18,402 nt of DNA from Lentzea aerocolonigenes. GTDB lineage: Bacteria > Actinomycetota > Actinomycetes > Mycobacteriales > Pseudonocardiaceae. Under the pieces are notes generated by a model. It was given only the letters and a program-made list of their open reading frames with translations, was not told where the DNA came from and made no database searches. Position numbers and translations under genes: made by a program. Shown piece by piece: positions 3,001-17,972 of this stretch; position 1 is the stretch's first letter; the number at the start of each line of letters is the position of its first letter. The stretch spans positions 1 through 18,402 of the forward strand of contig NZ_JYJG01000443.1 in NCBI RefSeq assembly GCF_000955955.1. The letters run 5' to 3'.

Positions 3001-3734
3001 GGCTGGAACTGTTCTGGCGCACCGAGTTGCGCGGAGCGTCGCTGACCGCGTCGCTGCCGGCGGACCGGCTCCGGCCAGCCCGGCTGTCCGGCAGGGGAGG
3101 CCTGCACCGCGCGGAAGCGGGGCTGGGCGCGGTGCGGGCGGCGGCGAGCGGACTCGGGGTCACGCCGAACGCCGTGCTGGTGGCGGGGCTCGGGGTCTGG
3201 CTCTCGCTGCGCACCGGGCGCACCGACGTCGTGGTGCCGCTGTCGAGCGCGAACCGGGTGGAGCCAGGACACGAGGACGTCGTGGGGCTGCTGGGCGACG
3301 TGCTGCCGCTGCGCCTGCGACTGTCCGAAGTGGACGACTTCGCCGGGCTCGTCGTGGCGGCCTCCTCCGCGCTGGCCCGCTCGCTCGACCACGCCGCACT
3401 GCCGTTGACCGAGATCGTCCGAGCGGTGGGTGCGAAGGAGCCGCCGGACCTGCTGTGCACGGTGGTCACCACGCCACCGGCGCGGGTGTCGCTGCCCGGC
3501 TTGCGCACGACGACACGTCCGGTGCTGCGGCCTGGAGCCGCGAGGACCGAGCTGTACGTGGTGCTGGTACCGGGTGAGGAGACGGTGGAGGTGCTCGTCG
3601 AGTACTCGGCCGACCTGTTCGACGAAGGCACTGTTGCCGCGTGGACAGCGGAGCTGGTCGATGTGTTGACCTGGTTTGCCAACGATCCGCACCAACCGTT
3701 GTCGAGTTTGGCAAACTCTGGCAAACTCGGGTGA
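1..3734 (+). CDS. Nonribosomal peptide synthetase, C(partial)-A-T-C, 5' end outside the window
   Basis: This protein activates an amino acid as an acyl-adenylate, loads it on a carrier thiol and forms peptide bonds in the cytosol. The reading frame is open from base 3 and the gene starts upstream. Residues count from base 3. Residues 1-245 are the second half of a condensation domain (SNRP near 92, HRDVQFDEL near 138, the RNPLFDVM block near 158); its HHxxxDG lies upstream. Residues 275-740 are the adenylation domain (YTSGSTGRPKG 415-425, NQYGPTE 547-553, YRTGD near 621, NGKLDR 728-733). The carrier domain has GGHSL with phosphopantetheine Ser785. Residues 830-1235 are a second condensation domain (RHEALRTRF near 876, HHAICDAWS 950-958). 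There is no thioesterase, so release must use the terminal C domain, another protein or a downstream enzyme. The specificity residues read D-V-Q-F-F-A-Q-I-I plus Lys730, closest in pattern to proline-type DVQ codes but not a match. Domain calls are secure; the substrate is not. Confidence 0.96.
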   Translation, partial: VAVRRDADLLHWREVLNGAPLLQLPTDRPRPAVRSGDGASVTREFGADLAERLRVFAGTRRGTVFTTVLGALGAVLSRFSGQDDFTVGTAVSNRPPDARDVVGMFLDTVPLRLDLAGDPSFAELTHRIRDLSTEALDHRDVQFDELVAAVNPERDLGRNPLFDVMVEFERQDDIEFAPPELTATLRDVPSDRAPFDLTYYFTQHRDGLRCVVEYDTALFDEATVSRLLDYVGHVLDRALTAPDAPLSELVTLTRADRALLTADSGEQAGRPEACLHELVEQQALRTPDTVALMGRHGGTTYRELVERAAGLAAALRDRGAGPGAVVGVLLPRGAYLIVAVLAVLRSGAAYLPLDPELPAARLRYLAGDSAAALVITSRSTVDKAVDLPVQYVEDAVPAPHEPVPGDPDGPAYVIYTSGSTGRPKGVVVPHRGPVNLVRWHLRHHEPLRTAQWTSLSFDVSVQEIFTTLAAGATLVLVDAGERHDLADLVVRYGVQRLFLPFSPLRHLLDQRPSLSSLREVFSAGEAMVITPSVRWFLSGHPLCALYNQYGPTETSIIVTSHRVDPVLGSRPPIGRPITGARVEVVDAAGRAVPVGAVGEIRVSGLPVATGYVGLPPFGDDYRTGDLGRVRPDGEIEFLGRRDDQVKIRGHRVEPGEVTAALSEVDGVAAAAVIARPDRDGAAELVAYVVPAHDAVDVTQLRDRLAETLPGHLVPRSWVTLDRLPHQVNGKLDRTALPEPAPPAPTACDEMPVTDAELSVHEIWCAELGLPRIGVTRSFFAAGGHSLNAVKVVHRIAVAHDTRMTVAEFFAAPTIRAVAARLETTATSPVTSVVSRLWHKQQRLVEPSVHHIAHRVDVEGDLDVPVLRRALAELVRRHEALRTRFLCRDGELVAEVLPAFPVDLVPERVTDAGAWCSDWVAAPFALDRSPLFRIGLAETGPGRHVLVTVFHHAICDAWSLTVLWRDLAELYAGRDLPRQVAQYADRARWEREVLGGGDRARLELFWRTELRGASLTASLPADRLRPARLSGRGGLHRAEAGLGAVRAAASGLGVTPNAVLVAGLGVWLSLRTGRTDVVVPLSSANRVEPGHEDVVGLLGDVLPLRLRLSEVDDFAGLVVAASSALARSLDHAALPLTEIVRAVGAKEPPDLLCTVVTTPPARVSLPGLRTTTRPVLRPGAARTELYVVLVPGEETVEVLVEYSADLFDEGTVAAWTAELVDVLTWFANDPHQPLSSLANSGKLG

Positions 3735-3738
3735 GTTT
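3699..3738 (+). promoter_or_regulatory. Putative operator (GGCAA repeats) and alternative hairpins ahead of the DUF1611 gene
   Basis: GGCAA occurs at 3710-3714 and 3720-3724, exactly 10 bp apart, with TTGTC at 3699-3703. Two further elements, TTGAC 3666-3670 and TTGCC 3676-3680, are also 10 bp apart inside the synthetase gene. The same elements recur at 7388-7414 and 8354-8380. GAGTTT (3704-3709) pairs with AAACTC (3713-3718), and a second AAACTC (3723-3728) pairs with GAGTTT (3733-3738), so two small stems can form. The last synthetase codons here (AGT, TTG, GCA, TCT, AAA) break the strong G/C third-base habit, as expected if DNA-level constraint overrides codon choice. The regulator is unknown. 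Confidence 0.5.
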
Positions 3739-3762
3739 CCAGCCATTACCAGGGGGATCGCG

Positions 3763-4851
3763 ATGGAGCATCTGAAAAGGCTTGCCGTCCTGGCAGACGG
3801 CGAGATGGCACCGCACCCGTCGAAAACACTGGCCGGCGTGCTGCGCTACCGGTCGGACCGCGTCGTGGTCGCGGTCGACCGGCAACACGACGGGCGGGAC
3901 ACCGGTGACGTGCTGGGCCTCGGCCACGGCACCCCGATCGTCCGCGACGTCGCCGCCGCACTGGAGCACGGGCCGGACGGGGTGCTGCTCGCCACCGAAC
4001 CGACCGGCGGCGTGCTGCACCCGTACTGGCGCGACCAGATCCTGCAGGCGGCGGAGGCGGGCCTCGACGTCGTCAACGGTCTGCACACCCTGATCTCCGG
4101 CGACGAACGCATCGTGGCCGCCGCGCAGCGGTCGGGAGCGAGGATCTGGGATCTGCGCACCCCGCCGGTCGAGCGGTACCGGACGCCTCTCGACGCGGAC
4201 GGCAAGCCGATCGTCCGCGTTCGCGAGCACCGTCCGGGCACGAGGACCGTTCTCGCGGTCGGCACGGACTGCGGCATCGGCAAGATGACCACGATGCTCG
4301 AGATCGAGCGGGAGAGCGCGGCCCGCGGGCTCGGTCCCGCGTTCGTGGCGACGGGCCAGATCGCGATGATGATCACCGGTCGCGGTGTGCCGGTCGACGC
4401 GATCATGAGCGACTTCGTCAACAGCGTGGTCGAGGACGAGGTGTGCGACGCGGTGCGGGAGCACGACCTGGTGCTCGTCGAGGGGCAGGGTGCGTTGAAC
4501 CACCCGCGCTTCTCCGCGGTGACGCTCGGACTGCTGCACGGCACCCGGCCGGATTCGATGATCCTCTGCCACGACCTGCGCCGCCCGGCGATCAAGCTGA
4601 TGCCGGACTGGCCGCTGCCGCCGTTGAAGCGGGCCATCGAGATCAACGAGGAGGCCGCCCGGTGGCTGTGGCCGGACGGACCGGCGCGGGTCGTCGGTGT
4701 CTCCGTCATCACCGGTGCGGTGCCGGACGAGCAGGCCCGCGCCGAGCTGGCCCGGATCACCGAGGAGACCGGCCTGCCCGCGACCGACGTGCTGCGCTAC
4801 GGGCCGGGCCCGCTGGTCGACGCGATCATGGCCGGGCCCGTCGCGAGCTGA
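3763..4851 (+). CDS. DUF1611 family protein, DgcN-like P-loop enzyme, possible amino-acid N-acetyltransferase
   Basis: This is a 362-residue cytosolic protein of the DUF1611 family. The N-terminal half is a Rossmann-like domain; the C-terminal half opens with the P-loop GTDCGIGKMTT at residues 167-177, followed by VLVEGQGALNHP, a family hallmark. From family knowledge, the characterised member DgcN N-acetylates D-glutamate, and relatives are often paired with an enolase-superfamily racemase; no such partner is in the window. The ATG at 3763 is chosen because AGGGGGA lies just upstream (3751-3757). An upstream in-frame start at 3676 would sit inside the synthetase gene. The gap to the synthetase stop is 28 bp, so co-transcription is possible, but a putative operator sits at the junction and may give the gene its own promoter. 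In this context it may modify or protect an amino-acid precursor or the product; that is inference. Family assignment is firm, reaction is not. Confidence 0.9.
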   Translation: MEHLKRLAVLADGEMAPHPSKTLAGVLRYRSDRVVVAVDRQHDGRDTGDVLGLGHGTPIVRDVAAALEHGPDGVLLATEPTGGVLHPYWRDQILQAAEAGLDVVNGLHTLISGDERIVAAAQRSGARIWDLRTPPVERYRTPLDADGKPIVRVREHRPGTRTVLAVGTDCGIGKMTTMLEIERESAARGLGPAFVATGQIAMMITGRGVPVDAIMSDFVNSVVEDEVCDAVREHDLVLVEGQGALNHPRFSAVTLGLLHGTRPDSMILCHDLRRPAIKLMPDWPLPPLKRAIEINEEAARWLWPDGPARVVGVSVITGAVPDEQARAELARITEETGLPATDVLRYGPGPLVDAIMAGPVAS

Positions 4852-4865
4852 CCCGGTCCGCGATG

Positions 4866-4904
4866 GCACCGCGGCTCGTTCGATCGCCGAGCGGGCCGCG
4901 GTGC
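4866..4904. terminator. Strong hairpin between convergent genes
   Basis: GCACCGCGGC (4866-4875) and GCCGCGGTGC (4895-4904) are perfect 10-bp inverted repeats, and the stem can be extended by CTCG/CGAG on the inside. It fills the 60-bp gap between the stop of the DUF1611 gene and the stop of the convergent exporter gene. No U-run follows, as is usual in actinomycetes, so it probably acts as a bidirectional terminator or 3'-end stabiliser. Confidence 0.7.
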
Positions 4905-4911
4905 GGCGTGG

Positions 4912-6132
4912 TCAGCCGGCGCGTCGTGAACCCCAGGCCAGCAGCGTCGTGACGACGAGGACGAAGGCAGCGAGTGCCAGCCAGTACACGTGGTGCGCGC
5001 CCGCGTAGTACATCGTGAGGAACACGCTGCCGCCCGCGAGCGAACCGAGTGCCTCGCCCGCGGTCCAGCAGACCTGGCGCAGGTTGAACGCCTCGAACTT
5101 CGACTCGATGGCGAGCCCGGCGAACGCGGTGCTCTGCATCGGTGTGAACACCATCTCGGCCAGCGCGAAGATCGACACCGCGATCGCGGTACCCCACCAC
5201 GCCGGCACGTCCAGGCCGAGCGTGAACAGCGCCAGCGTGAAGATGAAGGAACCCCGCACCAGCACGGTGAACGGCGTCGCCCCGCGCCGCATGATCCTCG
5301 TGACCACCGCGGTGACCGGACCCTGGAACACCGCGATCGCCAGCGCCGGCCCGGCGATCAACGCGCCGCGCAGGAACTTCGAGTCCGCGAACTCCTGCGC
5401 GACCAGCAGTGCGATCGCCGAGTAGAAGTGCCCGTACACGAACGCCCCGGTCGCGCCGATGACCACCAGCCTGCGGGTGGCCGGATCGGTCACCGTCCAG
5501 CGCAGCACCTCGCCGCTGATGGGCCACGCGGCGGCCGCGGGCGCGGGGCGCAGGCCGCCTGGCACACCGGCGAACACCGCGAGGCCGGCCAGCAGATAGC
5601 ACGCGGCGACCACGGCCAGCAGCAGCTTCGCGTCGACGACGATGAGGAAGCCGCCGATGAACGGGCCGAGCGCGGCGGCCAGGTTCACCGCGATCTGCAG
5701 CATCGAGTACATCCGGTTGCGGCCGATGTCGCTGCGCAGCTCCTCGGCGATCAGCACCCTGGACATGAGGTAGTGGACGCTGACCCCGAGCCCGGCGATC
5801 ACGAGCAGCGCGACTTTCGCCAGTGGCGAGCCGACGTGCGGCAGCGACCCGAACGCGACGGCGCTGAGCACCATGCTGCCCGCCATGCCGCGCAGGTAGG
5901 TGAGCCTCGTGAGCCACCGGTTGAGCAACAGCGCCGACAGCCCGGCCGACGCGGAGTAGGCGAACAGGCCGATGCCGACGAACGCGGTGCTGGACCCCGT
6001 CGCGAGCAGCACGCCGAGTACGGGCAGCACCGAGTACAGGCCGAGGCAGCCGAGTCCCTGGTCCACCGCGAGCGACCAGCGCAGGCGCGCACCGAGCTCC
6101 TCGGCGGCGGGGGCGGGGGAGAGAGGCGTCAC
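4912..6132 (-). CDS. Major facilitator superfamily transporter (probable product exporter)
   Basis: The product is a 406-residue integral membrane protein with about 12 hydrophobic segments and a short basic loop after the second (around NRWLTRLTYLRG), as in drug/metabolite exporters of the MFS. A longer basic loop near the middle (after the GGLRP segment) divides the two six-helix halves. The GTG start at 6132 is preferred because GGAGG lies 4 bases upstream and the GTGA overlaps the ligase stop codon by 4 bp, a clear sign of translational coupling. A start at 6228 would add an arginine-rich stretch unlike a transporter N-terminus. Being the second gene of a ligase-exporter operon suggests that it exports the peptide product, perhaps also giving self-resistance. 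The substrate cannot be read from the sequence. Confidence 0.9.
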   Translation of the reverse strand: MTPLSPAPAAEELGARLRWSLAVDQGLGCLGLYSVLPVLGVLLATGSSTAFVGIGLFAYSASAGLSALLLNRWLTRLTYLRGMAGSMVLSAVAFGSLPHVGSPLAKVALLVIAGLGVSVHYLMSRVLIAEELRSDIGRNRMYSMLQIAVNLAAALGPFIGGFLIVVDAKLLLAVVAACYLLAGLAVFAGVPGGLRPAPAAAAWPISGEVLRWTVTDPATRRLVVIGATGAFVYGHFYSAIALLVAQEFADSKFLRGALIAGPALAIAVFQGPVTAVVTRIMRRGATPFTVLVRGSFIFTLALFTLGLDVPAWWGTAIAVSIFALAEMVFTPMQSTAFAGLAIESKFEAFNLRQVCWTAGEALGSLAGGSVFLTMYYAGAHHVYWLALAAFVLVVTTLLAWGSRRAG

Positions 6133-7349
6133 GACGCCTCCACCTCGAACCGCACAGCGGCCATGAGGTCGTCCGCGCGTTCGCGGGCCTGCTCGACGGT
6201 GTCGCCGCCGATGACGAGCAGGCCGCACCGATCGCCCGACGCGTGGACGGGCGGAATGACCTCACCTGGCCGCACGGTCAGTTCCGCGTGCAGCACCTTC
6301 GGGTGTGCGACGACCTCTTCCCAGCCCTCGACCTCGCGCAACCGGCCTGGTGGCGGCGTGAAGTAGCGGGAGGTGGCCGCCCGTGACGGTGCGGGCGGTG
6401 GGGTCGCGCCGCCGGTCAGCTGGTCGTCGTAGACCAGGCCGAACATCTCCGCCTCCGGTACCGCGTGGCCGAGCAGGCGGTGGATCCAGTCGCCGCCGGG
6501 CCGCGGGTGCACCTCGCCCAGTACGACACCGTGCGCGGTGACCCAGAACTCGACGTGGAAAACACCGTGGGACAGACCGAGTGCCGCCGCCGCGCGCCGC
6601 ACCTGACCGGACACCTCGCCGGCTACCGGCGCGGGCAGTTCCGCGGGGAGGGTGTGGGCGACCTCGACGAAGCCCGCCGTCTCCTTGGCGGTCAGCGCCA
6701 GCACGTGCGGCACACCGCGGAGGAACACCCCTTCCGCGCTGTACTCCTGACCGGAGACGAACTCCTCGACGAGGAACTCCGGCGGTGATGCGGCGACCGC
6801 GGCACGCAGCGAAGCCTCGTCGCGGGCCAGGTGCACGCCCTCGCTGCCCTGACCACCGCGGGGCTTCACCACCCACGGACCGGCCACCTCGCCGGCGAAC
6901 GCCACCGCGTCGGCGAGGCTCGCGCAGAGCCGCACCGCCGGCTGTGGCAGCCCGGCCGCCGCGAGGACCTGCCTGCACTCGTCCTTGCGCTGACTGCGCC
7001 GCACCGCGGCAGGGGAGTTGCCCGGTGTGCCGAGCGCCTCGCTGACGGCCGCCACCGAGGGCAGCACCGCGTCGCGGAGTCCGAGCACGACGTCGAACCC
7101 TTCCCCGGCGGCTGTCCGTTCCCGTGCCCAGCGCACGCACGCGGCCGGGTCGTCGGGATCCACGACGGCGGTCGCCGATGCGGCCGCCGTGACCGCGGGT
7201 GCCGATGCCAGCAGGCCGGCACTGGTGATCACGTACGTCCGCAGCCCTCTGGCGTGGGCCTGGGCCAGTGCGTCCGCGACGATGTCGCGGCTCGAGGAGA
7301 CCGGTCCCGCACCCCCGATCAGCAGCACGGACTTCGGCACGCCGGCCAT
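6129..7349 (-). CDS. ATP-grasp carboxylate-amine ligase 1
   Basis: This is a 406-residue cytosolic ligase expected to activate a carboxylate as an acyl-phosphate with ATP and join it to an amine. The N-terminal Rossmann-like domain starts with VLLIGGAG. The ATP-binding lysine is in VVKPRGGQGSEG (Lys165). FLVEEFVSGQEYSAEG (192-207) is the typical middle strand. Metal ligands are Glu267 and Glu279, and EVHPRPGGD (279-287) keeps the ExxxR arrangement with His in place of the usual Asn. The ATG at 7349 is chosen because AGGGGGAG lies just upstream; a longer frame to 7394 lacks any ribosome binding site and would run into the operator. Its closest broad relatives are the L-amino acid ligase/carnosine-synthase type enzymes, though it is clearly diverged from the two ligases encoded at 8391-10980. 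It is the first gene of an operon with the exporter. The acyl and amine partners are unknown. Confidence 0.92.
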   Translation of the reverse strand: MAGVPKSVLLIGGAGPVSSSRDIVADALAQAHARGLRTYVITSAGLLASAPAVTAAASATAVVDPDDPAACVRWARERTAAGEGFDVVLGLRDAVLPSVAAVSEALGTPGNSPAAVRRSQRKDECRQVLAAAGLPQPAVRLCASLADAVAFAGEVAGPWVVKPRGGQGSEGVHLARDEASLRAAVAASPPEFLVEEFVSGQEYSAEGVFLRGVPHVLALTAKETAGFVEVAHTLPAELPAPVAGEVSGQVRRAAAALGLSHGVFHVEFWVTAHGVVLGEVHPRPGGDWIHRLLGHAVPEAEMFGLVYDDQLTGGATPPPAPSRAATSRYFTPPPGRLREVEGWEEVVAHPKVLHAELTVRPGEVIPPVHASGDRCGLLVIGGDTVEQARERADDLMAAVRFEVEAS

Positions 7350-7387
7350 CGCTCCCCCTGGTTGTCGCGGACAGCTCGTCTGCCACG

Positions 7388-7414
7388 TTGCCACAGTTTG
7401 ACAACATGAGGCAA
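7388..7414. promoter_or_regulatory. Putative shared operator in the divergent promoter region
   Basis: TTGCC (7388-7392), TTGAC (7398-7402) and GGCAA (7410-7414) form a 27-bp array. Read on the minus strand it is TTGCC-N7-GTCAA-N5-GGCAA, the same order and spacing as the site at 8354-8380. It lies between the divergent ligase 1 gene (start 7349) and the GNAT gene (start 7446) and could control both. On the plus side TAAGGT (7432-7437) is a possible -10 box, but the AAGG in it could instead serve as a ribosome binding site. Confidence 0.6.
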
Positions 7415-7445
7415 ACGCGGTGCACCTTCGGTAAGGTCCGTCGGC

Positions 7446-8330
7446 ATGGAGTCAGTGCAGGTGAGGCTCATGCGCGAGGACGATCTCGCCGGGGCGGAAC
7501 GCGCGTCGGCCGTGACGTTCCACGAGGGCGACCGGCTCACCCGGCGGGTGAACGAGCCGGAGCCGCAGCCCAGGTCCGAAACGGCGTCCGCGCAGTGGAT
7601 CGAGCGGATGCGCTACCTGCTCACCACTGATCCAGGCGGGTGCTGGGTCGCGACGGACGGCGAGGAGGTCGTCGGGTTCGCGATCTCGCAGAACCGCGAG
7701 CGGTTCTGGTACCTCGCCACCTACGGCGTGCTGCCGGACAGACAGGGTGGTGGCATCGGCAGGCGGCTGATGGATGCCGTGCTCGCCCACGCCGACGGCA
7801 GGCAGGGCATGTTCTCCTCCACCGTGCATCCCGGCGCGACGCGGCGCTACCGGCTGGCGGGCTTCACGTTGTACCCGCAGCTGCGCATGGTCGGCGAGGT
7901 CGACCGCTCGACGTTGCCCTCGATCACCGGGCTGCGCGACGGCGACGCGGCCGACTTCGGCTGGATGGACGAGCTGGACCGCTCCCTGCGCGGCGCCGGC
8001 CACGGGCCCGACCACGGCTACCTGGTGAAGAACATGCGACTCGTGGTCGCGCGGCGGCGGGACCGGTCGGCGCACGGGTACGTCTACGTCGACAGTCGCG
8101 GCCGGGCGGCGCTGCTCGCCGCGTCGAGCGAGGACATCGCGCAGGACCTGCTGTGGGAGGCACTCGCCTCCGCGCAGGGCGACACGCTGGTCAACTGCAT
8201 CACCACCGCCAACCACTGGGCGGTCGACGTCGGGCTCGCCGCAAAGCTCGACATCGGGCAGGAGGGGTACCTCGCGGTGCGTGGCATGGGTGAGCCCGCG
8301 CCCTACCTCGCCAGCGGTCATTTCCTCTGA
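7446..8330 (+). CDS. GNAT family N-acetyltransferase with two GNAT-like lobes
   Basis: The protein has 294 residues, about twice the size of a minimal GNAT. The N-terminal lobe carries motif A, VLPDRQGGGIGRRLMDAVL, with the acetyl-CoA loop QGGGIG at residues 100-105. The C-terminal lobe (about 150-294) has the same fold pattern (DGDAADFGWMDELDR, then a strand-helix region) but no matching CoA loop, so it is probably a degenerate second GNAT domain, an arrangement known in several antibiotic-pathway acetyltransferases. The ATG at 7446 gives the full motif; the AAGG at 7433-7436 is a modest ribosome binding site, or the mRNA may begin at the start codon. It lies between two ligase operons and shares the putative operator, so a role in acetylating the product, for tailoring or self-protection, is reasonable but inferred. 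Confidence 0.9.
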   Translation: MESVQVRLMREDDLAGAERASAVTFHEGDRLTRRVNEPEPQPRSETASAQWIERMRYLLTTDPGGCWVATDGEEVVGFAISQNRERFWYLATYGVLPDRQGGGIGRRLMDAVLAHADGRQGMFSSTVHPGATRRYRLAGFTLYPQLRMVGEVDRSTLPSITGLRDGDAADFGWMDELDRSLRGAGHGPDHGYLVKNMRLVVARRRDRSAHGYVYVDSRGRAALLAASSEDIAQDLLWEALASAQGDTLVNCITTANHWAVDVGLAAKLDIGQEGYLAVRGMGEPAPYLASGHFL

Positions 8331-8353
8331 CCGGATCTGCGCGGTGCCACGCA

Positions 8354-8380
8354 TTGCCTCGATTAGGCAACGTCTGGCAA
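8354..8380 (+). promoter_or_regulatory. Putative shared operator/promoter of the ligase 2-ligase 3 operon
   Basis: TTGCC (8354-8358) and GGCAA (8366-8370) form a 17-bp dyad with a 7-bp spacer, and a second GGCAA (8376-8380) follows 10 bp on. The preceding TGCCACG (8345-8351) is also seen before the 7388 site (7381-7387). The GTG start of the next gene is at 8391, only 10 bases on, with no ribosome binding site, so the transcript is probably leaderless with its -10 box near 8379-8384. The dyad would then cover the -35 to -10 region. Confidence 0.6.
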
Positions 8381-8390
8381 TATCGGTGCG

Positions 8391-9662
8391 GTGGAACAAC
8401 GGGTGCTCGTCATCGGCGACCTCAAGTCCACCGCCGCCGCTGCGGCGGCGCTGGGTGCTGAGGTGTGGTGGGTGGTCCGGCACGGTGACGTCCCGGCGGA
8501 ACGACCCGCCGCGGTGGACGTGACGCTGGTGCTGGACTACACCACCGACTCCTTCCTGGACCTGGTCGCGGACCTGCACCGGGTGCGGCCGTTCGACGCG
8601 ATCGTGGCGACCCTCGAGAACGCGTTGCTGCCCGCGGCGGCGCTGACCGACCGGCTGGGCCTGCGCGGTCCTTCGCGGGAAGCGGTCCGCGTGCTCACCG
8701 ACAAGTGGTCGACGCGGAAGCGGCTGCGCGAACGCGGGGTGAGCCCGGTGGCCGCGGCACTCGGCAGGTCGGCGGACGACCTGCGGGCGTTCGCGGCGGC
8801 GCACGGGTTCCCGTTCATCGCCAAGCCGGTCGCGGCCACCGGCAGCTACGGGGTCGCGCTGGTCGACGGCCCCGAGTGCGTCGACGCGGTGGCGAGGCGG
8901 TTCGCCGAGGTCGGCACGGCGACCTTCCTGCTGGAGGAGTTCCTCGACGGCCACGAGATCAGCGTCGAGTCGTTCTCCTTCGACGGTGAGCACGTGGTGC
9001 TGGCGCTCACGGACAAGCTCGTGGGCGACGGGTTCGTGGAGGCCGGGCACACCGTTCCCGCCGTCCTCGACGACGCCGTCGCGCAGGAGGTCGTCGCACT
9101 GGTCACCGAGTTCCTCGACGCGGTGGGGCTGCGGCACGGTCCGTCCCACGTCGAGGTCAAGCTGACGTCACGTGGTCCGCGGGTGGTCGAGGGGCACGCG
9201 CGGCGTGGCGGCGACCGGATCAACGACCTCGTCCGGCTCGTGTACGGCATCGACATGGAGGAGATGACGGTGGCCTGGGCGCTGGGCCGCAGGGGACCGC
9301 TGACCGCCCGGCCACGGGCGCGGCGCGGCGCGGCCATCCGGTTCGCGACAGCCGGGCAGGGCGAGGTCGTCGCAGTGGACGGTCTGGCGCAGGTGCGGTC
9401 GGACCCGCAGGTCGTGGAGTCGGGCGTGACCTACGCGGTCGGGCAGCACATCGGCAGGACGCGGTGGTCGCTCGACCGGCCGGGGTTCGTCATCGCAGTC
9501 GGTGCCACGGCGGAGGAGGCGGCGCACCGGGCGGAGGTCGGCGCGGCCCGCATCGTCTACACGGTCGTGCACGGCCAGGACGACGGGGAGCTGGCCGCGG
9601 AACGCGTGCTGAACCGCGAACTCGACCTCGCGAGGCACGTTGGCTACGAAGGCGCTGGTTGA
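8391..9662 (+). CDS. ATP-grasp carboxylate-amine ligase 2
   Basis: This is a 423-residue ATP-grasp enzyme that should form an amide bond through an acyl-phosphate. It begins with a Rossmann-like strand (VLVIGD). Lys145 in FIAKPVAATGSYGV binds ATP, FLLEEFLDGHEISVES (179-194) is the central strand, and HVEVKLTSRGPRVVEGHARRGGD (253-275) supplies metal ligands Glu255 and Glu267 and Arg271. As in ligase 1, His (269) stands where many ATP-grasp enzymes have Asn. The GTG at 8391 is used because the preceding bases hold the operator and no Shine-Dalgarno; translation is probably leaderless. The gene overlaps ligase 3 by 23 bp, so the two are likely made together and may act in sequence or on different bonds of one product. 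Ligase class is firm, substrates unknown. Confidence 0.92.
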   Translation: MEQRVLVIGDLKSTAAAAAALGAEVWWVVRHGDVPAERPAAVDVTLVLDYTTDSFLDLVADLHRVRPFDAIVATLENALLPAAALTDRLGLRGPSREAVRVLTDKWSTRKRLRERGVSPVAAALGRSADDLRAFAAAHGFPFIAKPVAATGSYGVALVDGPECVDAVARRFAEVGTATFLLEEFLDGHEISVESFSFDGEHVVLALTDKLVGDGFVEAGHTVPAVLDDAVAQEVVALVTEFLDAVGLRHGPSHVEVKLTSRGPRVVEGHARRGGDRINDLVRLVYGIDMEEMTVAWALGRRGPLTARPRARRGAAIRFATAGQGEVVAVDGLAQVRSDPQVVESGVTYAVGQHIGRTRWSLDRPGFVIAVGATAEEAAHRAEVGAARIVYTVVHGQDDGELAAERVLNRELDLARHVGYEGAG

Positions 9663-10980
9663 CGTGCGGGGCACGGCGATCGCCGTCGTCGACGGCAACG
9701 CGATGACCGCGCACCTCGAGGTCGCGCTGCGCGGGCACGGCATTCGCTGCGTCGGCCTGCACAGTGCTCCCCGGCTGTCCGGCCGCTGGGCCGACCCGAC
9801 CGCGTACTCGGCGGAACTGGGACATCAGCGCACCCTCGACGCCGCTGTGGCGGCTCTGGCCGAGCTGCGGGTCGGCCGCGTGCTGGCCGGTGGTGACTCC
9901 GGCGTCGCGCTCGCCGACGTGCTGAACGACCGTCTCGGCCTGCCGGGCAACGACCCCGCCCGCACCGCGGCTCGCCGAGACAAGGCGGCGATGGCGGCCC
10001 AGCTGCACGCGGCGGGACTGGCCGCGCCCGCCACCGCCCAGGTCGGGTCTCCTGACGAGGCTGCGGACTGGTACTCGGCCTGCGGCCACCCCCGCGTGGT
10101 GGTGAAACCCGTGGCCAGCAGCGGCACCGACCACGTGCGGGTGTGCGCGAACGCCGGCGATGTGCGCGAGGCGGTCGAGCAGGTGCTGGGTGCCGAGAAC
10201 TTCTTCGGTGAGGCCAACTCGGCAGCGCTCGTGCAGGAGTTCCTCTCCGGCGACGAGTTCATGGTCAACACGGTCGCCGTCGACGGCGTGCACAAGGTGT
10301 CCGACGTCTGGAGCTCGAGGAAGACCGCCGGCCCCGGCGGCGTCCCGCTCTACGACTACCAGCAACCGGTCCCGCGTGCCGGCGCGGATGTCGTCGTGGA
10401 CTACGTCAAGGACGCGGTGGCCGCGTTGGGCGTCGTGACCGGCGCGGCGCACAGCGAGGTGATGCTGACTGCCCGCGGTCCGGTTCTCATCGAGACCGCG
10501 CCACGCCTGATGGGAGGCTTCCAGCCGGCCGAGGTGGAGCGCTGCTGCGGCACCTCGCACGTGGAACTCCTGGCCCGTTCCCTGGTGGACCCGGCGGCGT
10601 TCGACGCGTTCGAGGAGCGAGACGTGCGCTGGCGGCAGCAGCTGCGCAACGTGTGGCTGATCAACCCCAGGGCGGGAGTGTGCCGGTCCCGTTGGCCGGA
10701 GGCATTCGCCGCTCTGCCCGCGCATCGGGGTGTCACCGCGCGGTTCGGCCCAGGCGACCCGGCCCCGAGGACGGTGGACGCGAGGTCGTCGCCGGGCTAC
10801 GTGTGGCTGGCGGCGCGGACGGAAGCCGAGCTGGACCGCGACCTGGCGGCTGTGCGGGCGTTGGAGGCGGGTGACCTCTACGTGACGGGCCGGGCGCCGG
10901 ACGAGGGTGAGGCGGCTTCGGCCGACCGCGGCCAGCACCAGCGTGCTCAGGCCCTTGGCGTGAGGACGGTGCGCTCGTAG
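9640..10980 (+). CDS. ATP-grasp ligase 3, L-amino acid ligase-like
   Basis: The 446-residue protein has the pattern of the L-amino acid ligase branch of the ATP-grasp superfamily (BacD- and DdaF-type enzymes making dipeptide bonds). Lys156 lies in VVVKPVASSGTDHV, ALVQEFLSGDEFMVNTVAV starts at 196, and AAHSEVMLTARGPVLIE with ETAPRLMGG supplies Glu273, Glu285 and Arg289. The start is a TTG at 9640, inside the ligase 2 gene, with GAGG 4 bases upstream; a GTG at 9664 is the alternative and would lose eight residues. The last residues, after about 410, have no family counterpart that I recognise, and the final 34 bp lie antisense to the end of the dehydrogenase gene. The coupled start implies joint production with ligase 2. 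Substrates cannot be read directly. Confidence 0.92.
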   Translation: MATKALVDVRGTAIAVVDGNAMTAHLEVALRGHGIRCVGLHSAPRLSGRWADPTAYSAELGHQRTLDAAVAALAELRVGRVLAGGDSGVALADVLNDRLGLPGNDPARTAARRDKAAMAAQLHAAGLAAPATAQVGSPDEAADWYSACGHPRVVVKPVASSGTDHVRVCANAGDVREAVEQVLGAENFFGEANSAALVQEFLSGDEFMVNTVAVDGVHKVSDVWSSRKTAGPGGVPLYDYQQPVPRAGADVVVDYVKDAVAALGVVTGAAHSEVMLTARGPVLIETAPRLMGGFQPAEVERCCGTSHVELLARSLVDPAAFDAFEERDVRWRQQLRNVWLINPRAGVCRSRWPEAFAALPAHRGVTARFGPGDPAPRTVDARSSPGYVWLAARTEAELDRDLAAVRALEAGDLYVTGRAPDEGEAASADRGQHQRAQALGVRTVRS

Positions 10981-13412: not shown

Positions 13413-13679
13413 ATTGATTGCCGACAGACGTCGGCCGTACCCTTCCGCATGCTCGTTCGTCAGTTGATGTGAGGCGATGCGAGCGAAACCTTCATGGCTG
13501 TTGCAGAGTTGTGACTTTATCTGTCGTGGAATCGTTTGGGTGCATCACGGGCGGCGTGGTCGATTTTGTGATCTCTGCCGCGCATCCGTTTTCCGTCTCC
13601 TTCGTAGCGAGTTTCTCCCGGGTGAGTGGCTTGCCGGCAAGGCATAAGTGGCTCGAATTCGGAAGGGAGGTTGGATGTC
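13413..13679. other. Lower-GC intergenic region upstream of the aminotransferase-cupin operon
   Basis: No gene is evident. The stretch has visibly more A and T than its surroundings, with runs such as GATTTTGTG and GACTTTAT, and should hold the operon promoter. It contains a perfect 10-bp palindrome TTGCCGGCAA at 13631-13640, 40 bp before the aminotransferase start, whose half-sites equal the TTGCC/GGCAA elements of the ligase promoters but without their spacing. GGGAGG at 13664-13669 is the ribosome binding site for the GTG at 13680. Confidence 0.45.
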
Positions 13680-15026
13680 GTGACCAGCAGGGCCGTGGGT
13701 CAGGGTCTGTTCACGGTCGCTTTGAGCGACCTCCATGAAACGCAGAGCATGCCCTTTGCTGATGCGACCGCTCTTCGTCGGGTCGTGTCAGGAAAAGCGG
13801 ATGATGTCATCTCGCTGGCTTCTGGCACGCCGTACGAGGGCGACTTCGATTTGAAGGCCGTGCAGGACTACCTGGAACTCTTCCACCAACACCTCGTGGT
13901 CAGCTACGGCGGTGATGAGCGCGGCGCGACCAGGACGATCCTCCAATACGGCCGTGTCAAAGGGGTGATCAACGACCTCGTCGCTCGGCACCTCGAAGTC
14001 GATGAACAGATCACCGCGGATGCGGACTCCATCGTCGTGACAGTGGGCGGCCAAGAGGCACTCTTCTTGACGATGCGGGCACTGCGCCGTACCGACCAGG
14101 ATGCGGTTCTCGCTGTCCAGCCCACTTATTTCGGCTTCATCGGGGCCGCAGAGCTCGCTGATCTGAAAGTGCTGTCGGTGAAGGACAGCGCAGACGGGAT
14201 CGACCTGGATGATCTGGAGAACGTAGTCGCCGAGGCTGTTGCGGCCGGCCTCCGGCCACGTGCCGTGTACGTCGTGCCGGACTTCGCGAACCCCACCGGT
14301 ACGACGATGCCACTGCACACCAGACAGCGACTGCTCGAACTCGCCGGCGAACTCGGGTTGCTGATAGTGGAGGACAACGCGTACGGACTGCTGTCAACCG
14401 ATCGAGATCACCCGCGCACGATCAAATCGATGGACAGGGCCAGGCACGTCGTCTATTGCGGTTCGTTCGCCAAGACCGGTGTTCCTGGCGCCAGGGTGGG
14501 TTACGTCGTGGCCGACCAACCGGTGACGGGCGGCGCCCCCGGCGAGACGTTGTCGGATGAGCTCGCTCGGATCAAGAACATGGTCACGCTGAACACCTCG
14601 CCGATCGCGCAAGCGGTCATCGGAGGAAAGCTCATCCACCACGGTTTCAGCCTGCGCACCGCAAATCTCGCCGTGGCCCGGCACTATCGCCGTAATCTCA
14701 CCGTCGCACTGGACACCTTGGCCGAACTGTTTCCAGAGGGCTCCGTACCGGAGGTCACCTGGTCCGCGCCGCGGGGTGGGTTCTTCGTCGTGTTGAACGT
14801 CCCGTTCGAAACCGCCGATGAACTTTCCGAGGAGTGTGCCGCCGACCACGGCGTTCTGTGGGTGCCGATCCACCGGTTCCACGGCGACGGAAAACCGCGC
14901 CGCCAGCTGCGCATCTCGATCAGCTCGGTCACGCCTGAGGCGCTGCGCACCGGACTCATCAGATTGGCCGGCTTCATCTCGCAGCACGTCGAGAAGTCCG
15001 CACCGAGCGTTCCGTCAACCTGCTGA
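13680..15026 (+). CDS. PLP-dependent aminotransferase, class I/II (fold type I)
   Basis: The 448-residue protein is a cytosolic pyridoxal-phosphate enzyme. The cofactor lysine is Lys265 in CGSFAKTGVPGARVGYV, the PLP-contacting Asn204 is in DFANPTG, and Asp232 and Tyr235 are in VEDNAYG. The C-terminal RRQLRISIS holds the arginine that usually binds the substrate carboxylate. The pattern is closest to the 2-aminoadipate/MocR-type branch of class I aminotransferases. GTG at 13680 follows GGGAGG by 10 bases; an upstream ATG at 13626 lacks such a site. The cupin gene starts 14 bp after the stop, so the two form an operon. Third codon positions hold more A and T than those of the ligase genes, suggesting a separate origin. 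It could supply a keto or amino acid, or be one of the atypical PLP enzymes of this fold; the sequence alone does not decide. Confidence 0.9.
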   Translation: MTSRAVGQGLFTVALSDLHETQSMPFADATALRRVVSGKADDVISLASGTPYEGDFDLKAVQDYLELFHQHLVVSYGGDERGATRTILQYGRVKGVINDLVARHLEVDEQITADADSIVVTVGGQEALFLTMRALRRTDQDAVLAVQPTYFGFIGAAELADLKVLSVKDSADGIDLDDLENVVAEAVAAGLRPRAVYVVPDFANPTGTTMPLHTRQRLLELAGELGLLIVEDNAYGLLSTDRDHPRTIKSMDRARHVVYCGSFAKTGVPGARVGYVVADQPVTGGAPGETLSDELARIKNMVTLNTSPIAQAVIGGKLIHHGFSLRTANLAVARHYRRNLTVALDTLAELFPEGSVPEVTWSAPRGGFFVVLNVPFETADELSEECAADHGVLWVPIHRFHGDGKPRRQLRISISSVTPEALRTGLIRLAGFISQHVEKSAPSVPSTC

Positions 15027-15040
15027 CCGGGAGTTCCGCA

Positions 15041-15595
15041 ATGACAGAATTGGACGAAGTCCGGCCATCGTCGACCGAGCGGTCGGTCAGTGCCACCTGG
15101 CAGATCAGCCTGGCGGGAAGCCAGCAGGGCGCGACGATCGAGGGCCCCCAGAAGCAGTTCTTCCGACCCGTTGCGACCGAGGGGTTGTGCGGAGCGTCGG
15201 ACCTCTCCGCGTACAGCGTGGCTCTGACGCCCGATCGGCATGTGATCCCCCACTACCACGAGGACGATCGCATCGTCGTCATGCGCTCCGGAACAGCCGT
15301 GACCCTGCTCGCCGCACCGAATGGGACCTCGTGGGAGGTGGCACTGGTGTCAGGACCCGGAGACATGATCTTCATTCCCGCGTTCTGGCGGCATCAGGCG
15401 GTCTGCATGCACGACGTCGACGCCTTGGAGATCTCCGGAGATGCCCGATTCAACCACTCCGTGGTGCTCGCTCCCGAGTTCGAGCGTCCGGACCTCGAAC
15501 AGGAGCTGCGAGACCGCTACTCGGCGGGACGTTTGGCCCGCGGAGCTCACCAGCTGACTGAGCTCGCACGGCCGCGCGAATCTCTGCGGAGGTGA
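15041..15595 (+). CDS. Small cupin-domain protein
   Basis: This 184-residue protein has a single cupin barrel. Motif 1 is VIPHYHEDD (68-76) with probable metal ligands His71 and His73; motif 2 is GDMIFIPAFWRH (107-118) with His118. The usual motif 1 glutamate is not at its normal spacing, and Asp75 or Asp76 may replace it. ATG at 15041 follows GGGAG at a normal distance and lies 14 bp after the aminotransferase stop, so the proteins are made together. Cupins of this size may be metal enzymes (isomerase, oxygenase) or binding proteins; here it may act on the product of the PLP enzyme. The exact reaction is unknown. Confidence 0.88.
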   Translation: MTELDEVRPSSTERSVSATWQISLAGSQQGATIEGPQKQFFRPVATEGLCGASDLSAYSVALTPDRHVIPHYHEDDRIVVMRSGTAVTLLAAPNGTSWEVALVSGPGDMIFIPAFWRHQAVCMHDVDALEISGDARFNHSVVLAPEFERPDLEQELRDRYSAGRLARGAHQLTELARPRESLRR

Positions 15596-15704: not shown

Positions 15705-17972
15705 CTACTCCGCGGGCACCAGAGCGAGCTCCGCCTCCACCGCCTTGCGGTCGTCGCGGTTGGCGGGGTCGTCGCAGAGGTCGAGCGCGAGCGTGAGGCA
15801 GTCGTGTGCGCGCTGGAACTCGCCCGCGTGGCGCCACGCCGTGCCTTCGCACACGAGCAGCTCCACCCGGCTGCGGTAGGTCGGCCGGGCCGTGCCGAAC
15901 AGCCTGATGACCTCGTGGTACTGCTCGGCGGCCTCCTGCCAGCGGCCCAGGCCGGCGAGACAGTCGGCGATGTTCATCCGCACCAGCGTCATCGTCTTGG
16001 CGGCCACCTCCGGGTTCGTCTCGCCGATCCGTTCGCAGACCTCCGAGAGCAGCGGGGTGAGAACGGTGAGCGCCTCGCTGAAGCGGCCCGTCGCGAGTCG
16101 TATGCCGCCGCTCCCGATGTGCATCCAGAACCGGGTTTCGAAGAAGTCGTACGACTCCGACATCTCGGACGCGAGGTCGACGTGCCGCAGCGCCTCCTCG
16201 GGCTCTCCGAGGGACAGCAGCGGCCACCCCACCGCCGAGTGCACGATCATGGCACCGAAGTGGTGGTCGATCTCCTCGGCGAGGGCCAGCGCTCCCAGCA
16301 GGACGTCCCGCGCCCGTTCGCTCTCGCCCAGGCTCCAGTGGAAGGACGTTCCGTACTGGGCGAGCAGGTTGACCTCCGCCGTCCGATCCCCCAGCTCCCT
16401 CGCGGCGCGCACACCGCATCCGAACACGTCGGGCCAGGGGTACATCGGCTCACGCCCGTGCGCGTAGTTGTACAGCGCCCAGGTGCAGTCGACCACCTCG
16501 CGGTACCGGCGGGCCTCCGTCGCCCGGCTCACCACCGGGAGCCAGTTGGTGGACTCCTGCTCCAGCCACTCCTTCGCCTCGTCCTGGGAGCGGAACGGGC
16601 TGTCCTGCGGCATGCCGGTCATCTTGGCGAGGAACAGCTTCGAGGCGTCGGTGGTCTTGCGCAGCACATGCGTGAGGAGGTCGTCCTGCAGCCGTGCCCG
16701 GACGTCCTCCGGTTCCTCCGCCGCCAGGCGTTCCTGGGCGAACAACCGGACGAGGTCGTGGAACTGCAATCGCATCCGTGCGGCCGTCACGGTGAGCAGG
16801 GATGCTTCGACCAGTTCGTCCAGCTGTGCCTCGACCTCGTCCTGGGGGACGCCGGTGACGACCGCCGCGAGCTCCTCGCTGAAGTGGGCCCCGGGGACGA
16901 GGGCGAGCCTGCGGAACACCTCCTGCGCCGCGGGGCTGAGCCTGCGCAGCGAGACCTCGAAGGCAGGCCGGAGCCGCAGGTCGCCCGCCGCGAGCGAGTC
17001 GAGCCGGCGGCGTTCGTCGCGGAGCTGTCCCGCCAGGTAGGACAGCGACCAGTGCCGGCGGGTCGCCAGGCGGTTGCCGACGATCCGCACGGCCAGCGGC
17101 AGGTTGCCGCACAGCTCCACCACCTCCTTGGCGGCGGCGGCGTCGGCCTGCACGACGTCCTCGCCCACGATCGTGGTCAGGAGGTCGACGGCGCTCTGCT
17201 CGGGCAGCACGTCGAGCACCAGGCGCTGCGCCGGTTCCAGACCCCCGAGCGAGCGCCGGCACGTCACGATCGTGAAGCTGTGATCACCACCGGCCAGCAA
17301 CGGCAGCACCTGGGCGTCGTCCGCGGCGTTGTCCAGCAGGACCAGGATGCGGCGGTCCCGCATCAAGGTGCGGAAGAGCGAACTCCGTTCAGCCTCTCCC
17401 GGCGGGATGCGGCGGGCGGGCACGCCGAGAGCGGTGAGCATCCGCTCCAGCGCGGGCGCCGCCGTGACGGGGTGATCGTCCACACCGCGGAGGTCGATCG
17501 CGAGGCAGCCGTCCGGGAACAGCACCTTCAGGCGGTCCGCGGCAGCCACGGCGAGTGAGGTCTTGCCGACACCCGGAGGTCCGATCACGACCGCGGTGCC
17601 CCCTGCTCGCGCGGCGCGGGCCAGCTGGTCGAGCTCGTCGTCCCTGCCGACCAGCGCGGGTACGGCAGGCAGGCCGTACAACATCGTCCTGGTGCCGGAG
17701 AGGCTGGACCTGCGCCTGCCCTCCCTGGCCAGCAGGAGGAACGATTCGCGTTCGTCACCGGTCAGTCCCAGCGCTGTCGCCAGCAGCTCGGTGGACTTCT
17801 CCTGAGCGGCTGCCGCCCGTCCGCGCTCCAGCTCGCGCAGCGCACGCACACTCAACCCGGAGGCAAGCGCCAGATCCCTCTGCGACAGCCCGGCCTCGGT
17901 CCGGTATCTCAGCAGAGTGTGGCCGAAGGACGGACCGGGTGGTTCCTCGCGCAGCTCCGTCACGCCGACCAT
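15705..17972 (-). CDS. XRE-type HTH / NB-ARC / TPR transcriptional regulator (AfsR-like architecture)
   Basis: The 755-residue protein joins three parts. An XRE helix-turn-helix lies at residues 15-70 (GLSQRDLALASGLSVRALRELERGR). A STAND/NB-ARC ATPase follows, with Walker A GPPGVGKT at 131-138, Walker B ILVLLDN at 209-215 and GNLPLAV at 289-295. TPR-like helical repeats fill about 430-755, with repeated LG..EEAL and A..LGRW-type units. Such proteins are thought to switch when ATP and a ligand or partner bind, and often govern secondary metabolism in actinomycetes. The ATG at 17972 gives the full HTH; a GTG three codons later is possible, and no good ribosome binding site is seen. It is encoded convergently to the aminotransferase-cupin operon and shares its HTH style with the gene at the right edge. 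Whether it binds the TTGCC/GGCAA sites is unknown; its own upstream region lacks them. Confidence 0.93.
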   Translation of the reverse strand: MVGVTELREEPPGPSFGHTLLRYRTEAGLSQRDLALASGLSVRALRELERGRAAAAQEKSTELLATALGLTGDERESFLLLAREGRRRSSLSGTRTMLYGLPAVPALVGRDDELDQLARAARAGGTAVVIGPPGVGKTSLAVAAADRLKVLFPDGCLAIDLRGVDDHPVTAAPALERMLTALGVPARRIPPGEAERSSLFRTLMRDRRILVLLDNAADDAQVLPLLAGGDHSFTIVTCRRSLGGLEPAQRLVLDVLPEQSAVDLLTTIVGEDVVQADAAAAKEVVELCGNLPLAVRIVGNRLATRRHWSLSYLAGQLRDERRRLDSLAAGDLRLRPAFEVSLRRLSPAAQEVFRRLALVPGAHFSEELAAVVTGVPQDEVEAQLDELVEASLLTVTAARMRLQFHDLVRLFAQERLAAEEPEDVRARLQDDLLTHVLRKTTDASKLFLAKMTGMPQDSPFRSQDEAKEWLEQESTNWLPVVSRATEARRYREVVDCTWALYNYAHGREPMYPWPDVFGCGVRAARELGDRTAEVNLLAQYGTSFHWSLGESERARDVLLGALALAEEIDHHFGAMIVHSAVGWPLLSLGEPEEALRHVDLASEMSESYDFFETRFWMHIGSGGIRLATGRFSEALTVLTPLLSEVCERIGETNPEVAAKTMTLVRMNIADCLAGLGRWQEAAEQYHEVIRLFGTARPTYRSRVELLVCEGTAWRHAGEFQRAHDCLTLALDLCDDPANRDDRKAVEAELALVPAE

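Follow-up and report, generated by a model that had tools for sequence, protein, structure and literature searches.

Putative GGCAA/TTGCC operator arrays shared by units of a natural-product gene cluster in Lentzea aerocolonigenes and a candidate XRE-type HTH-TPR regulator

The stretch analysed (hereafter the window; 18,402 nucleotides) is the entire contig C90 (NZ_JYJG01000443.1) of the 10.25-Mb draft genome of Lentzea aerocolonigenes, which consists of 648 contigs. It carries part of a natural-product gene cluster, with genes for a nonribosomal peptide synthetase (NRPS), a DUF1611 protein, an MFS exporter, three ATP-grasp ligases and a GNAT acetyltransferase, among others. Three arrays of the pentamer half-site GGCAA/TTGCC precede four transcription units of the window; these are likely to be operators of an XRE-type helix-turn-helix (HTH) regulator with tetratricopeptide repeats (TPR), encoded on contig C172 of the same genome, which would control the units of the cluster together with its own gene.

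Putative operator array 1 (3666-3724) comprises TTGAC-N5-TTGCC (3666-3680) and TTGTC-N6-GGCAA-N5-GGCAA (3699-3724) and lies 39 bp 5' of the putative target gene for the DUF1611 protein (3763-4851, forward strand, ATG at 3763), which is DgcN-like (242 bits, below the cut-off of 480). Putative array 2 (7388-7414) is a near-palindrome, TTGCC-N5-TTGACAA-N5-GGCAA, between the divergent genes for ATP-grasp ligase 1 (6129-7349, reverse strand, with a LAL_C2 domain) and the GNAT acetyltransferase (7446-8330, forward strand), both putative targets, as is the MFS exporter gene 3' of ligase 1 (4912-6132, reverse strand). It reads TTGCC-N7-GTCAA-N5-GGCAA on the minus strand and TTGCC-N7-GACAA-N5-GGCAA on the plus strand and, because it is alike from either side, it could serve both divergent genes. 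Putative array 3 (8344-8380), GTGCC-N5-TTGCC-N7-GGCAA-N5-GGCAA, is composed of TTGCC-N7-GGCAA-N5-GGCAA at 8354-8380 and an extra GTGCC at 8344, and is located 5' of the putative target unit of ligase 2 (8391-9662, forward strand, with a LAL_C2 domain) and ligase 3 (9655-10980, forward strand), which overlaps the end of ligase 2.

The letters and positions of all three arrays agreed with a preliminary description of this DNA, which had proposed that they mark four units as one regulon. Its placement of the arrays in front of the four units was confirmed, with one qualification: array 1, while close upstream of the DUF1611 gene, also falls inside the NRPS frame near its 3' end (stop codon at 3732-3734). 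This adenylation/condensation frame is called an NRPS from its own sequence and local matches. Further genes of the window encode a zinc dehydrogenase, a LysR regulator, an aminotransferase, a cupin protein (weak match) and an HTH-NB-ARC-TPR protein; as had also been claimed, a scan of the window found no array upstream of the dehydrogenase, LysR or NB-ARC genes. A lone TTGCCGGCAA was observed at 13631-13640, approximately 40 bp upstream of the aminotransferase start; this is a dyad with a spacer of 0, which is not a preferred spacing.

The GNAT promoter was compared with that of a genome of another genus in the same family (G078, one of 390 family genomes in which G000 is the window's own), where the GNAT ortholog is 78% identical. 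A -10-like box, TAAGGT (7432-7437, forward strand), is predicted 17 nt past the last GGCAA, and TAAAGT stands at an equal distance in G078; TTGCC, the central CAA, GGCAA and the TAARGT box 17 nt on are all kept between the two genomes. Both this promoter and that of ligase 2 (8379-8391; GNAT, 7432-7446) look leaderless, with AATATC and TAAGGT ending 6-8 nt before the start codons.

GGCAA-N5-GGCAA with up to one mismatch occurred 6 times in the window compared to 0.67 expected, and none of 200 shuffles reached 6. Under a loose rule (at least three half-sites, two of them exact) the window contained three arrays, while dinucleotide shuffles (n=300) had a mean of 0.17 and a maximum of 2, so that three were never reached. 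That the arrays might nevertheless be chance repeats in GC-rich DNA draws some support from real DNA: the loose rule returned 7 arrays in the 63.8 kb of three cluster contigs (C90, C547 and C172, see below) and 8 in same-genome control stretches totalling 214.6 kb, array 1 is in coding DNA, and the minimal dyad TTGCC-N6..8-GGCAA was rarer genome-wide (21 places) than its reversed-letter control (45). The loose rule, being weak against such control DNA, was dropped in favour of a phased exact rule, in which half-sites are exact and at preferred spacings. By this rule 6 arrays were found in the 63.8 kb of cluster contigs compared to 1 in the 214.6 kb of control, an approximately 20-fold higher density, even though the array at 7388-7414 is uncounted because its middle half-site is GACAA/GTCAA; the frequency of the array elsewhere in the genome was the check that the preliminary description had proposed for itself. 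With up to one mismatch the 27-bp pattern had 5 matches genome-wide, 4 of them in C90 at two places, while with up to two mismatches the genome total (14) was below the reversed-letter control (27), and only near-exact arrays are therefore informative. Four of the 21 minimal dyads fall on C90, C547 and C172, which together make up 0.62% of the genome. As looser forms are not rare, the case is built on half-sites that are exact and phased, together with the comparison of different genomes. With the shuffles, the phased control, the cross-genus GNAT footprint and the enrichment upstream of one regulator family (below) all against it, an origin by chance is very improbable, and the arrays are probably real sites.

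Arrays of the same kind are present on two other contigs of the genome. On C547, one (15001-15064) is upstream of a TauD-like dioxygenase gene (start at 15084) and a desaturase gene, and another (28601-28637) is between divergent polyketide synthase (PKS) and NRPS genes; on C172, arrays are found at 1887-1912 and 4346-4390. The three contigs are probably parts of one cluster split by the assembly, because orthologs of their genes share a 33-kb block in G078 (contig C6, 182.7-215.1 kb), which unites the exporter, GNAT and ligase 1 genes of C90, seven genes of C547 and two of C172, including that of the regulator. The predicted regulon is therefore larger than the four units of the window.

The exact three-part pattern was counted by hand across the 390 family genomes, giving 51 matches in 40 genomes compared to 23 control matches. 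As a family-wide detector it was rejected, as most single matches look like background: judged by the first residues of neighbouring predicted proteins, seven loci with isolated matches (L071-L077, in the numbering of fetched loci) showed no such cluster. The two exact matches in the window's own genome sit on different contigs. Among the other genomes, such matches were grouped inside 20 kb only in G078 (three in a 7-kb stretch) and G350 (two in a 12-kb stretch). In both, a related cluster encodes PKS, NRPS, ATP-grasp, dioxygenase, desaturase and exporter proteins; the GNAT ortholog of G350 is 71% identical. Taken with the genome statistics and the conserved GNAT promoter, the arrays in these related clusters support the shared operator and single regulon first proposed for the window. 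Ligase 1 was also considered as a guide to the operator, and was rejected since the ligase alone does not predict arrays. Homologs were present in 13 of 297 family genomes, none of them another genome of the window's genus, and operator-like arrays were found in 2 of 10 neighbourhoods examined (G287 and G078 contig C6). Eight neighbourhoods lacking the regulator family contained 2 phased arrays in 155 kb; G078 has 5 distinct phased arrays in 88 kb, counted once where L068 and L028 overlap.

The candidate regulator, an XRE-type HTH-TPR protein, is encoded at positions 1953-3149 of C172, and its gene begins 40 bp after TTGCC-N7-GGCAA-N4-GTCAA. The G350 cluster also encodes an HTH-TPR protein with half-sites in its own promoter, and relatives (E<=1e-40) were found in 5 of the 390 family genomes: the window's own G000 (58%), G078 (two copies, 57% and 45%), G350, G287 (50%) and G069 (39%). 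The window's own genome and the two others with exact arrays grouped inside 20 kb are all among these five. An EF-G/TetM-type GTPase-like frame was noted by eye beside the HTH-TPR gene in the window's own genome (L089, which is C172, approximately 1300-1700) and in G078 (L090, 3663-5771).

The preliminary description had named regulators of the cluster, with those of the window (15705-17972 and 18315 onward) among them, as ones that might bind. A single regulon bound by LysR, by the HTH-NB-ARC-TPR protein or by the truncated HTH product (18315 onward) is improbable, though these do share a contig with the arrays: the window regulator genes have no arrays in front of them, while the C172 regulator, like its relatives, carries an array in its own promoter. 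For LysR, three array-bearing genomes gave a 29% match in G078 and, at E<=1e-8, nothing in the other two (G350 and G287); the NB-ARC protein was matched in part (31-39%) in G078 and G287, but not in G350. LysR and NB-ARC were accordingly rejected as binders, having neither arrays before their genes nor good orthologs in array-bearing clusters. The NB-ARC-TPR protein at 15705-17972 is AfsR-like, scoring 287 bits with NCBIfam AfsR (under the cut-off of 1430), and has an XRE-type HTH where a SARP domain would be; neither Trans_reg_C nor BTAD was present in its domain listing.

The regulator family was followed further using one genome per species (84,980 species). The best 80 of 120 relatives were kept, giving 79 loci in Streptomyces, Nonomuraea, Actinomadura, Micromonospora, Actinoplanes, Amycolatopsis, Actinokineospora and Streptosporangium. 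Half-site pairs in these loci (1.49 Mb) showed distinct spacing peaks, with 31, 14, 21 and 10 inverted pairs (TTGCC-N6..9-GGCAA), 102 everted pairs (GGCAA-N4-TTGCC), 31, 26 and 24 direct pairs (N5..7) and more peaks one helical turn on, compared to mostly 0-6 reversed-letter pairs per spacing (isolated values up to 13). In a non-redundant subset of 58 representatives, the 400 bp 5' of the regulator contained 46 array clusters (19.9 per 10 kb; other distance bins, 0.1-1.9 per 10 kb), while control patterns occurred there 0 and 2 times. When no motif was presumed, GGCAA/TTGCC was the most enriched 5-mer upstream of the regulators (234 compared to 40.1 expected). At least one half-site was present in 58/58 regulator upstream regions versus 193/604 of those of other genes, and a strictly phased pair in 38/58 versus 46/604. 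Outside regulator promoters 79 arrays were found, of which 57 were at -150 to +300 bp of a gene start predicted by crude gene calls, 13 were intragenic and 9 were elsewhere. NRPS-like matches were found in 31 of the 58 regulator loci; of 10 control stretches taken from the window's genome, 1 had such a match.

The arrays could also be genuine operators of another regulator, for example a global one, whose targets include HTH-TPR gene promoters as well, since regulator promoters are often under the control of other regulators and phased pairs do occur in 46 of the 604 other upstream regions, although many of these belong to the same clusters. However, the site is sparse in the remainder of the window's genome and recurs with one regulator family across several genera, which makes such a regulator unlikely.

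Several observations weigh against control by the C172 regulator. Its gene is on another contig, and its linkage to the window, like the single cluster itself, depends on synteny elsewhere. For ligase 2, ligase 3, the dehydrogenase, LysR, the aminotransferase and the cupin, the G078 block offered no clear and separate ortholog. Half-sites are absent from the 200 bp upstream of the G350 DUF1611 ortholog (62%), and the GNAT ortholog of that genome follows another gene with no array just before it. G069 has the 39% relative and yet no phased array in 60 kb, and among seven short loci of distant HTH-TPR relatives (L082-L086, L088 and L097, that of G069 included) a phased pair was present in only one. 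The strictly phased pair is absent from 20 of the 58 regulator upstream regions while present in 46 of 604 others, and the counts are not independent because the loci are related by descent. Finally, regulator promoters showed a preferred distance between array and -10-like box, but arrays away from them showed no -10 peak at 18-19 nt (5 and 2 of 494), and counts were highest at offset 0 (27/494). Only at the GNAT pair and in front of the regulator genes is the predicted promoter geometry firm.

The arrays, their concentration on the cluster contigs and their recurrence upstream of and near the HTH-TPR family are computational observations; binding, ligand sensing, the sign of control and the unity of the three contigs as one cluster are inferred. 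In the model proposed, HTH-TPR dimers would bind GGCAA half-sites spaced by about one helical turn, such that two or more dimers could occupy one face of the DNA and cover the -35 region, and the TPR domain would sense a ligand and switch the DNA-bound complex. The ligase, exporter, acetyltransferase, DUF1611, dioxygenase/desaturase, PKS and NRPS units would be controlled together with the regulator gene. For the biosynthetic units we slightly favour activation that depends on the ligand, since a half-site of the GNAT promoter occupies the place of a consensus -35 box with equal spacing in two genera. Repression has about the same likelihood, most of all where the regulator would act on its own gene.

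The HTH-TPR proteins have Pfam HTH_31/HTH_3 and weak TPR matches, with the HTH at the N-terminus and the TPR at the C-terminus, as in PlcR/PapR, NprR/NprX and ComR/ComS, the peptide-sensing RRNPPA regulators of Bacillota. The predicted model of the L106 protein (predicted local distance difference test score, pLDDT, 91) ranked PlcR first in Foldseek and the predicted fold resembles PlcR/NprR/Rap, but unrelated TPR proteins (APPBP2, LGN and APC/C) matched about equally or better; as the TPR fold is common, the architecture does not prove RRNPPA membership. In contrast to RRNPPA systems, the present one has multi-half-site GGCAA arrays, is found in actinomycete natural-product clusters, and showed by eye no recurring small open reading frame after the regulator (420 bp downstream, same strand, 58 representatives). 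In one of the 58 loci (L141), a 68-amino acid frame with a signal-peptide-like start lies 14 bp past the regulator stop.

At least 626 proteins matched at E<=1e-30, with generic names among the 120 matches listed. No NCBIfam model matched either of two regulators scanned at its cut-off; RamB (cut-off 700 bits) gave 38.8 bits, at residues 8-79 only, and 34.2 bits, also in the N-terminal part only. The HTH is thus related to that of RamB/PrpR (Corynebacterium, Mycobacterium), whose sites are described as containing TTTGC(A/G)AA (PMC6765138, in part), resembling the present TTTGCC/GGCAAA. PrpR is described in the same text as having other C-terminal domains and binding coenzyme A derivatives, where the present regulator has TPR repeats. 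XRE-type HTH regulators have been tied to antibiotic clusters, with MmyB suggested to bind pseudo-palindromes and MmyB-like proteins carrying a PAS-like fatty-acid-binding domain at the C-terminus (PMC3406030, in part); the HTH-TPR regulator shares the HTH type and the cluster association, and has TPR in place of the PAS-like domain. SARP regulators (AfsR and others), like the regulator in the model proposed, control natural-product clusters via repeats near the -35 region, but their repeats are direct heptamers and the half-sites here are inverted and direct pentamers. Neither Trans_reg_C nor BTAD, the domains by which SARPs are defined (PMC12224297, in part), was listed for the HTH-TPR proteins, which places them outside that class. 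No recognised description of the operator or regulator family was found in the open-access literature searched. Two Streptomyces XRE regulators, one of S. coelicolor and one for candicidin in S. albus, have reportedly been described (cited in PMC12565409). We rate the system as a cluster-situated XRE regulator of RRNPPA-like architecture with a multi-half-site operator, a variant which appears to be new.

The array and candidate regulator make activation of PKS-NRPS/ATP-grasp clusters directly testable, and the site may help in drawing cluster borders, in joining draft-genome fragments such as C90, C547 and C172, and in discovering further clusters. In actinomycetes, the typical signals are small molecules made by enzymes (PMC10075063, in part). 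It is conceivable, though doubtful, that the family is an actinomycete PlcR-like branch sensing a peptide or precursor made by the ATP-grasp and NRPS enzymes of the cluster itself, as opposed to a ribosomal pheromone, so that the product is the signal. A TPR domain that reads a peptide would extend intracellular peptide sensing to the secondary metabolism of actinomycetes, and if the product is the signal, GGCAA operator arrays could be used to find such clusters. A protein with an MLY(A/S)G start, which by eye recalls an IS110-like transposase domain, also recurred (L108, 1-773 and 7100-8146; L091, 4707-5729; L133, 6125-7180) and is preceded by an array in L108.

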